Source: Sipunculus nudus (taxonomy: Eukaryota > Annelida > Sipuncula > Golfingiida > Sipunculidae). From it: a stretch of DNA of 64,000 nt. Where the stretch lies: the NCBI GenBank assembly GCA_026874595.1, contig CM049307.1, positions 29,365,079-29,429,078 on the forward strand, in the 5' to 3' direction. The position numbers were made by a program, and so were the translations under genes. Below the pieces are notes generated by a model, which saw nothing but the letters and a program-made list of their open reading frames with translations, ran no database searches and was not told where the DNA came from. Numbering within the stretch: position 1 is the stretch's first letter; each line of letters starts with the position of its first letter. Positions 6,801 through 9,800 of the stretch are shown in pieces.

Positions 6801-9800
6801 GCAGATGGAAGAACTTTAAAGCCAGCCATTTACGGTCCCCTTCTCTTTAGGGGGCCACCTTGGGCCACGTTTCAACAGGACTATGGACTGCGGGCTTTGC
6901 TCCATTCTGCCCCACCCCCTGCTCGACCTGCTAACCGGAATACTTGTTTCTGTTCGGTTCTGTCTTGGGCCTCTCTCCCTAGGTCAGATCCGACTCCTAG
7001 CCCAGCCATGACCTCTGAGTCTGGCCATGCATTTGCATCCTTTCGGGGTAAACCTTCCAAATGAGGTAAATCTGCCCCTCTGTCATTTTTTTCCAGCTGG
7101 GGTGCGCATTACATCTAAACATTTGTTTCTCAGCACCATCTTATTCAATTTCAGAATTTCGTTTTCACACTTGCCACCACTCACTCTGCATCCGTTTGAT
7201 AATCAACCTCCTAAGCACCCTGTCAAGAGAGCCGCTCTAGAGGAGGCCATTTAGTCGCTCTTAAACAAGGCTGCGATACAGACATCCCGGGCGTTTATTC
7301 CTACATTTTCCTGGTTCACATTTCCACCAGTCAGTTTGTCAAAAAGGGCATCTGGAAGAATCCATCTACATTCTCCTCATACTATCTCCCGAGACGTCTA
7401 CCACTATGGGTCCAGTGGTCTTGGCTTGTGAGGTCATCAACGTCTCACGTCATCCTGCTACGCTGACCGTTACTGCTCCTGCTCGGTCTACTGCAGCTTC
7501 TTTGACGCCTCCTGCGTCATCCTCTCAACATTAGATGTCTCTTTGCAGTTCACATCTTCCTTCTAGGTTTGTGTCTCCCTCCCCATGGTTTATCTGTTAT
7601 ATTCTCATTAATACAGAAAAGCTAACATTTGATTTTTACTAAATAAACCCCCCCCCCCCCCCACATTCCCTCCCCATGATTGATGGTTTTGTTTGAAAAT
7701 TTAAGTGAGCTTTTCTGTATTACAAATATTACACCCTCCGAGTCTTTCTCCGTGTCTCTAATGAAAAATATGAAATTAGCACCAGAAGTGTGACCAAGAT
7801 AACACCAGAATAAGACAGAAGTGGGCAATAATAGGTCCACTAAGGGGAAAATTTTGTTGGTAGGCTAAAGCATATAAACTCCTTACAGAGAAAATTCTCT
7901 TTAAATTAAGTTTAATACAGAAAAGCTCACAAACTTTAGTGAATTTACTGCCCTCCCAGATAATGCCCTATGTGAAGTTATACCATGCTCATCTGGCATA
8001 ATCTGCATACCGTACGTTAAACAGTTGTAGCTTAAAGAATATCCAAACAGTCTTAAGTCCCCATATGAGGAATGTTTTTTTTCTGTTTAAGTAATAGTAT
8101 AAGAAACTAATTGTTTTAATAAAAAAAACCTACTGTTTCAATTTTACACTGTATTATAGTATCTGTTATTTAAGTGATTAAGACATTGCCAGTCTGCTTA
8201 CTCTTACTATTTGAGCAGTGTAACAAATTGACCATTACATCACTTTGAAGATGTGCACGTTTTGACTTACCGAAATGACAAATCTGTGTCAAGGTATTTT
8301 AGATATTGTTTCCATGCATTCTTACTGTTGACGTGGAATTTTGTCTTCACTTGAAAATTCCTTTTTCTTTGTTTCATAGAAATTCATTTGGAGGAGGTTG
8401 TGATTATACTGTAACAGCATATATTCCATTAAAGCTTGGCATTAAGTGTTCATATTTTCAACAGGGAGGTATGGGCAGTCATCTGTTTACTTGCTGTGGA
8501 AGTCCAGCTTATGCTGCGCCAGAACTCATTGCTGGCAAAGAGTACTTGGGCAGTGAGGTAATGTTCACAAACAATTGCAATATAGTGTCATTCTGAATAT
8601 TAAAAAAAATCTCATAAGCATTGTATCATTCCTGTTCAAGGTCTCCTTCATTATCAGTGATCATTAATTTCCACAGACTATAAAGTAAATTTGGTGGTAA
8701 TTTACATTCATAATAAATCTGATAGTGAAATTCAAATGACAAGTTTATATTATATGGTAGTTGTGAACGTTTAAAAAAGTGAACAAAAGATATATCAAAG
8801 TAAATTAATAATTTAATGTAAAAAAAATAAATGTTGTATATAATTGTTCTGGTGTATTTGCAGCTGAAGTTGGTTTTTGTTGAGACTTTTTAAAACTTTA
8901 TTTCAAACTGATATATGGAGTATGTTTTTGCTGTTGTATGTTTTATTTTTTAATGTTTTATGGCTTTATTTCAGGTTGGTATATGGTATATGGGTGAGCT
9001 ATTGTATGCTGTATTTTTTACTGTTTTATGATTTAATGACAGGCTGATATATAGAGTATGGCTGTGCTATTGTATGCTGTATTTTTTACTGTTTTTTATT
9101 TAATTTCAGGCTGATATATTGAGTATGGGTGTGCTGTTGTATGCTGTATTTTTTACTGTTTATGATTAAATTTCAGGCTGATATGTGGAGTATGGCTGTG
9201 CTATTGTATGCTGTATTTTTTACTGTTTTTTATTTAATTTCAGGCTGATATATTGAGTATGGGTGTGCTGTTGTATGCTGTATTTTTTACTGTTTTATGA
9301 TTAAATTTCAGGCTGATATATGGAGTATGGCTGTGCTATTGTATGCTGTATTTTTTACGTTTTTTATTTAATTTCAGGCTGATATATTGAGTATGGGTGT
9401 ACTGTTGTATGCTGTATTTTTTACTGTTTTATGATTAAATTTCAGGCTGATATATGGAGTATGGCTGTGCTATTGTATGCTGTATTTTTTACTGTTTTAT
9501 GATTAAATTTTAGGCTGATATATGGAGTATGAGTGTGCTATTGTATGCTGTATTTGAACTGTTTTATGATTTAATTTCAGTTTGATATTTGGAGTATGGG
9601 TGTGCTGTTGTATTCTGTATTTTTACTGTTTTATGATTTAATTTCAGGCTGATATATGGAGTATGGGAGTGCTGTTGTATGCTTTATTATGTGGGTTCTT
9701 ACCATTTGATGATGACAATATTGGATATTTATACAAAAAAATACAGGTGAGTGTTCTTGCATTTGTTGATGTAGATCTTGTGTAACAATTTTTATGCTGT

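Follow-up and report, generated by a model that had tools for sequence, protein, structure and literature searches.

A tandem array of exon 7 acceptor copies in intron 6 of a MELK gene is a further mirage, probably neutral

Why does an intron carry, directly in front of its own acceptor, eleven copies of that acceptor, and would splicing be affected by them? Intron 6 of a MELK orthologue raises this question. We analysed a window of 64,000 nucleotides (the whole stretch of DNA presented here), which occupies positions 29,365,079-29,429,078 within a 98.5-Mb contig. The assembly contains 1,426,538,692 bases (1.43 Gb) in 153 contigs. Specifically, contigs C1-C11, C16, and C17 are 61-111 Mb each, the 12 sized contigs beyond C17 are 50-240 kb, and C69 exceeds 1 Mb. 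The chromosome number in this assembly is presumably ~17. The GC fraction of the genome is 0.37 in a sample of 210 kb.

The exon translations of the gene have MELK chains as their best PDB matches (phmmer, E 2e-55), consistent with the name given in the initial annotation. MELK exons were also placed by tblastn, with the human MELK protein as the query, and the last MELK exon encodes a KA1 domain (Pfam, E 4e-14). In the numbering used here, exon 2 is the one at 1,176, and the first coding exon lies outside the located set. The gene, the exon that follows the array, and the array itself are as follows.

~1,176 to 29,345, plus strand: MELK orthologue; exon translations match MELK
9648..9746, plus strand: real exon 7 of MELK, 33 residues, with donor CAG|GTGAGT; placed by phmmer, tblastn, and donor score
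8900..9647, plus strand: intron 6 acceptor array, 11 upstream units of 66-68 bp; defined by TRF, unit segmentation, and alignment

Tandem Repeats Finder (TRF) reports a 67-bp unit present in 11.7 copies at 8900-9688, with a score of 1172. Each unit consists of the last ~28 bases of intron 6 and the first ~40 bases of exon 7, and the units are arranged head-to-tail, with the first 'exonic' base at 8907, 8975, 9043, 9110, 9177, 9244, 9312, 9378, 9446, 9514, and 9581. Over its first 40 bases, the unit majority sequence agrees with exon 7 at 37 positions. Similarity is lost beyond that point, and the remainder of the unit resembles the end of intron 6. TRF, segmentation, and alignment all support the proposal that the exon 7 acceptor region has been copied in tandem eleven times upstream of the exon. 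The proposed unit, ~68 bp long with ~35 exon bases, is indeed derived from the acceptor, but its length is 66-68 bp and its exon part ~40 bp.

The acceptor AG is present in 10 of the 11 upstream units, that is, in many units though not in every one. The exact sequence CAG|GCTGATAT occurs at eight of 12 sites (seven upstream and the real one), which corrects the earlier description of twelve near-identical CAG acceptors; units 1, 2, 10, and 11 deviate, and unit 1 reads CAA. Reading from every upstream acceptor (11/11) runs into an in-frame stop, mostly TGA, as had been predicted (TGA in eight cases, TAA in two, TAG in one). In the shortest upstream case, 55 codons, AT-rich sequence of this composition would contain one or more stops with a probability of 0.99, and we therefore dropped the stops as a sign of design.

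A genome search with the unit returned 12 matches, all 12 at this locus; because frequent words are passed over in this search and scoring is confined to the top candidates, it speaks against close copies elsewhere rather than against all copies. The left flank of the array (8867-8906) is no more similar to the intron-derived portion of a unit than shuffled sequences are, 519 of 2000 of which score as well. This likeness thus does not mark the breakpoint at which the array was born.

Two parts of the array differ in their degree of divergence.

8907..8974, plus strand: unit 1, the most diverged unit, whose acceptor AG is gone (CAA); from segmentation and unit comparison
9043..9513, plus strand: homogeneous core, units 3-9, in which subtypes 3, 5, 7 and 4, 6, 8 alternate and unit 9 is a hybrid; from pairwise differences and a permutation test

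The left units have the largest mean differences from the other units (13.9 and 11.5), in agreement with the initial annotation. Units 10 and 11 have mean differences of 8.7 and 9.4, respectively, and units 3-9 have mean differences of 6.2-7.5, with a mean of 5.0 differences among units 3-9 themselves. Within this core, units two positions apart differ by 2.2 bases on average versus 7.0 for direct neighbours, and only 24 of 5040 orderings of the units are equally extreme. Two alternating subtypes and growth by dimer duplication had also been proposed; the pattern is present in units 3-8 of the core, but unit 9 takes its head from one subtype and its tail from the other, and the ends of the array lie outside the pattern. 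The uniform middle, the divergence of both ends, and the likeness of units two positions apart together indicate that dimers were duplicated in the middle and that the ends stayed outside homogenisation. Growth of the array toward the exon, as was suggested before, is not supported, since units 10 and 11 at the right end are diverged too and the middle is uniform.

The units depart from their consensus by 19 nonsynonymous, seven synonymous, and one stop difference over 132 codons, counts in which shared ancestry makes the differences non-independent events. Against the same consensus, exon 7 has two changes, both synonymous. We read this as protein constraint that probably acts on exon 7 and not on the copies.

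Comparison of 23 MELK boundaries (13 acceptors and 10 donors, leaving out those donors that belong to exons 11 and 13), each with 45 bases on either side, with the window shows that one more boundary is copied there in addition to the exon 7 acceptor, namely the donor of exon 8. A 30-base match (E 3e-4) links the acceptors of exon 12 and exon 13, which we take as shared T-rich composition.

11640..11807, plus strand: exon 8 of MELK, with donor AAG|GTTAAC, the lowest of the nine MELK donors scored
11877..12637, no strand assigned: terminal-inverted-repeat element that separates exon 8 from the donor copies, with terminal inverted repeats of ~86 bp at 11877-11962 and 12552-12637 (82.6%)
12638..12825, plus strand: exon 8 donor array in intron 8, three decayed head-to-tail copies of exon 8 end, donor, and intron 8 start; from self-BLAST, alignment, and a shuffle test

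The three donor copies occupy 12638-12701, 12701-12781, and 12781-12825, and the last of them extends only to about the donor. The donor GT is retained at 12671 and 12742 and is gone in the third copy. Although the third copy is short and weak, none of 2000 shuffled sequences scores as well. When the middle copy was searched against the genome, it returned itself and exon 8, nothing more; the reach of this search is limited, as it missed the other two copies. The element at 11877-12637 was probably inserted into the donor array, a placement made without an established target-site duplication. The window contains further repetitive sequence. A reverse transcriptase domain (RVT_1, E 2.6e-36, in 42531-43637) followed by further open frames occupies 42531-44546 and looks like a broken retroelement. 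Two related repeat blocks lie in direct orientation at 24422-28147 and 45953-48001, with 76% identity between 25971-27199 and 46169-47372 over 1251 columns.

We extended the comparison to 14 non-MELK exons. Scanning the genome for the Pfam kinase domain yielded 138 matches, from which 20 places with short stop-free frames were listed; eight of these 20 (roughly the top of the list, taken with the sequence unseen) and six non-MELK loci from the MELK search make up the 14. Among them, L052 has two internal stops and may be a pseudogene, while L049 and L051 sit in long open frames. Repeat hits were obtained at two of the 14 exons, L057 and L055. At L055 the repeat by the donor lies within the intron and is simple sequence of the CTA type; it was ruled out as a boundary array. 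At L057, the exon of another kinase gene is accompanied by a donor array.

C4:93,861,713-93,861,946, minus strand: L057 exon of another kinase gene; best PDB matches CTR1, MAP3K2, and MAP3K5
L057 1-931, on C4 just below 93,861,744, minus strand: L057 donor array, in which the real donor CACTAAG|GTAGATAC is followed by 13 or more further copies with a 65-bp unit, continuing as far as the sequence that was analysed

In the L057 unit, ~19 bases from the end of the exon are joined to ~46 bases of intron. The GT is retained in all 13 copies compared, and the last exon base is altered in three of the 13.

How often arrays strike boundaries was estimated from twenty-one 10-kb stretches (20 hand-picked places on C1-C11 and one beside the window; 210 kb). 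Minisatellite-like arrays are dense in this sample, with 28 arrays covering 16.7 kb. Three of at most 51 boundaries are struck, compared with 0.5-1.0 expected from random array starts at this density (P 0.01-0.08), where the 51 assigns two boundaries to every one of the 14 exons with splice-site status assumed and is thus an upper bound, which makes the rate of struck boundaries a lower bound. Leaving out the exon 7 acceptor array, which was given initially, two of 50 boundaries are struck (P 0.08-0.26). These counts are consistent with random birth of arrays without strong removal, plus a hint of excess.

The three arrays match structures reported from lancelets. Minisatellite-like duplications of intron-exon boundaries in lancelet Adh and globin genes are called 'mirages' (PMC3087553), and PMC3902484 adds troponin C and PGBD5 to the lancelet mirage genes. 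The mirages of Adh3, BflGb6, BflGb9, troponin C, and PGBD5 have boundary-spanning units on the 5' or 3' side (PMC3087553, PMC3902484). As in the MELK array, splice signals are described there as intact in many but not all units, with a uniform middle and an excluded cluster edge. Described unit lengths range from 10-72 bp (Adh3) to 150-160 bp (globins) versus 66-68 bp in MELK, and unit numbers of six and three are given for two BflGb6 haplotypes versus 11 upstream units in MELK. Lancelet mirages are reported to leave regular splicing intact (PMC3087553) and to give no aberrant mRNAs (PMC3902484), and they were proposed as a route to new introns (PMC3087553). Regular splicing, reported for the lancelet genes, is a prediction for the MELK array. 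The host very likely differs too. Lancelets are the sole hosts named for mirages in the papers found, which reflects what has been reported and is no structural trait. A Branchiostoma lancelet is very unlikely here, with 1.43 Gb and a sampled GC of 0.37 compared with 495.4 Mb in B. lanceolatum (PMC6292497), a strong though indirect argument. The open-licence literature that was searched contained no 'mirage' outside lancelets; an earlier report elsewhere is still possible. With its boundary-spanning tandem units, an AG in many but not all of them, a concerted middle, and diverged edges, the MELK array has the traits of a mirage, and it is a further one.

Other repeats are known to touch splice sites. 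The human interferon-induced gene 6-16, which we take to be IFI6, reportedly contains a minisatellite with multiple splice donor sites, a finding said to be that of Turri et al. 1995. It also multiplies a splice site, but a donor, while the MELK array multiplies an acceptor. Decoy exons combine a 3' splice site with a 5' one. The decoy exons and detained introns of OGT are like the MELK units in providing intronic splice sites able to compete. By comparison with decoy exons, unit 2 of MELK has a clear donor, and units 4, 6, and 11 have a weaker one, with a span of only 19 nt. In human duplicated genes, internal tandem repeats and minisatellite expansion at exon-intron boundaries are described (PMC2812944). 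Those repeats are of a different make, and novel introns and alternative transcripts are reported for them there. In an in-vitro study of a duplicated beta-globin 3' splice site, only the distal site was spliced, splicing was very inefficient, and the duplicated site increased binding of a second U2AF35 (PMC5389562).

The strength of the splice sites was scored as follows. An acceptor matrix was built from the 12 other MELK acceptors and is small and rough; with it, the real exon 7 acceptor scores 6.86, units 2, 4, 6, and 8 score 8.84-10.07, and the remaining seven units score below the real site. Four of the 11 upstream acceptors outscore the real one, so that, judged by acceptor strength only, the real site has no advantage. 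Acceptor-like sites that reach 3.5 on the plus strand number 490 in the 64-kb window; eight of them, the real one included, lie in 8,900-9,650, and there are up to 23 per 750 nt elsewhere. Acceptor density was dropped as evidence, since similar scores are frequent elsewhere in the window. Donors of nine MELK exons (exons 2, 11, and 13 being left out) were scored with human donor frequencies. The exon 7 donor CAG|GTGAGT scores 12.94 and is the top of the nine (range 2.84-12.94). The best in-unit donor is TGG|GTGAGC of unit 2 (8.55), followed by TGG|GTGTGC of units 4, 6, and 11 (5.41), which exceeds two of the nine real MELK donors (2.84 and 4.05). Other in-unit donors score at most 3.44, except for 6.63 at unit 2's own acceptor. 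In units 2, 4, 6, and 11, the in-unit donor and the unit's acceptor would enclose 19 nt. In unit 2, a possible 19-nt micro-exon at 8975-8993 reads CAG|...|GTGAGC, with an acceptor score of 8.84 and a donor score of 8.55. The nine genome matches of the MELK search (three MELK exons and six other kinase-like places) include no MELK retrocopy that could record splicing, and an Rfam search gave zero matches at gathering scores. Collections of prokaryote genomes and of viruses likewise yielded no match, and the haemocyanin beta-sandwich domain PF14830 gave no hit, as did its controls.

The array is probably a neutral mirage, in which the last acceptor would be used and the copies would have little or no effect. 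This mirage reading is supported by the anatomy of the units, by the genome search in which 12 of 12 unit matches fall at this locus, by the density of minisatellites in the sampled 210 kb, and by two further boundary arrays. Against it count the upstream acceptors that outscore the real one and the number of struck boundaries, which is rather high for chance. A short segment across the intron 6-exon 7 acceptor would have been duplicated in tandem, giving birth to a minisatellite, and unequal exchange or replication slippage would have expanded the array and homogenised its middle. The array would have been tolerated because the last unit still holds the whole exon. The last acceptor is expected to win because it is followed by the complete exon 7 and a strong donor. 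Specifically, by exon definition the spliceosome would stay with the last acceptor, since no other acceptor has an entire exon of 99 nt and a donor of full consensus behind it, and the residual effect would be rare mis-spliced, stop-containing transcripts at most. A neutral origin had been offered earlier as the alternative to a regulatory one, and it fits better: the units vary in the protein sense while exon 7 varies only synonymously, and like arrays that have been published reportedly leave splicing undisturbed.

Could the copies instead act on splicing? They might bind U2AF and U2 snRNP non-productively and so slow or regulate the removal of intron 6, like decoy exons. The AG of ten upstream acceptors, four of which outscore the real one, would suit such control, as would the paired sites of unit 2 (acceptor 8.84, donor 8.55) and the donors of units 4, 6, and 11, which match weaker real MELK donors; a duplicated 3' splice site increased the binding of a second U2AF35, and beta-globin duplicates were spliced very inefficiently (PMC5389562). 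The beta-globin result cuts both ways, as splicing of the distal site only would favour a neutral mirage by analogy, while the inefficiency would fit an effect on rate. However, acceptor-like sites of such score are frequent (490 in the 64-kb window), the enclosed exon would have only 19 nt, and the units show no sign of constraint, so we consider rate control unlikely. Regular use of the upstream acceptors could also yield stop-containing mRNAs that are degraded by nonsense-mediated decay and thereby tune the amount of MELK. An in-frame stop does follow all 11 upstream acceptors, but one is expected by chance (0.99 in 55 codons), and published mirages are reported to be free of aberrant mRNAs and splicing interference (PMC3902484, PMC3087553), which makes this tuning quite improbable.

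A trivial origin must also be weighed, namely that the array or its length results from mis-assembly. A single assembly is behind the locus, and one lancelet mirage was apparently assembled aberrantly in a draft (PMC3087553). Nevertheless, the MELK units differ from one another and form ordered subtypes, the locus lies inside a 98.5-Mb contig, and like structures are found at two further boundaries; an artefact is highly improbable. For the neutral mirage as well as for its rivals, any consequence of the array for MELK is a candidate only. What merits follow-up is the recurrence of boundary arrays at both donor and acceptor, of which the MELK array is one case.

Two genes of an animal that is very likely no lancelet thus contain three boundary arrays, which suggests a general, countable process. 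Possibly, and only tentatively, boundary minisatellites extend beyond lancelets and are common in this 1.43-Gb genome, perhaps at several percent of boundaries (donors and acceptors), where they may serve as a lasting reserve of additional splice sites from which new introns, new exons, or splice-rate control could arise. Mirages offer natural experiments on the spliceosome's choice among many near-identical sites.
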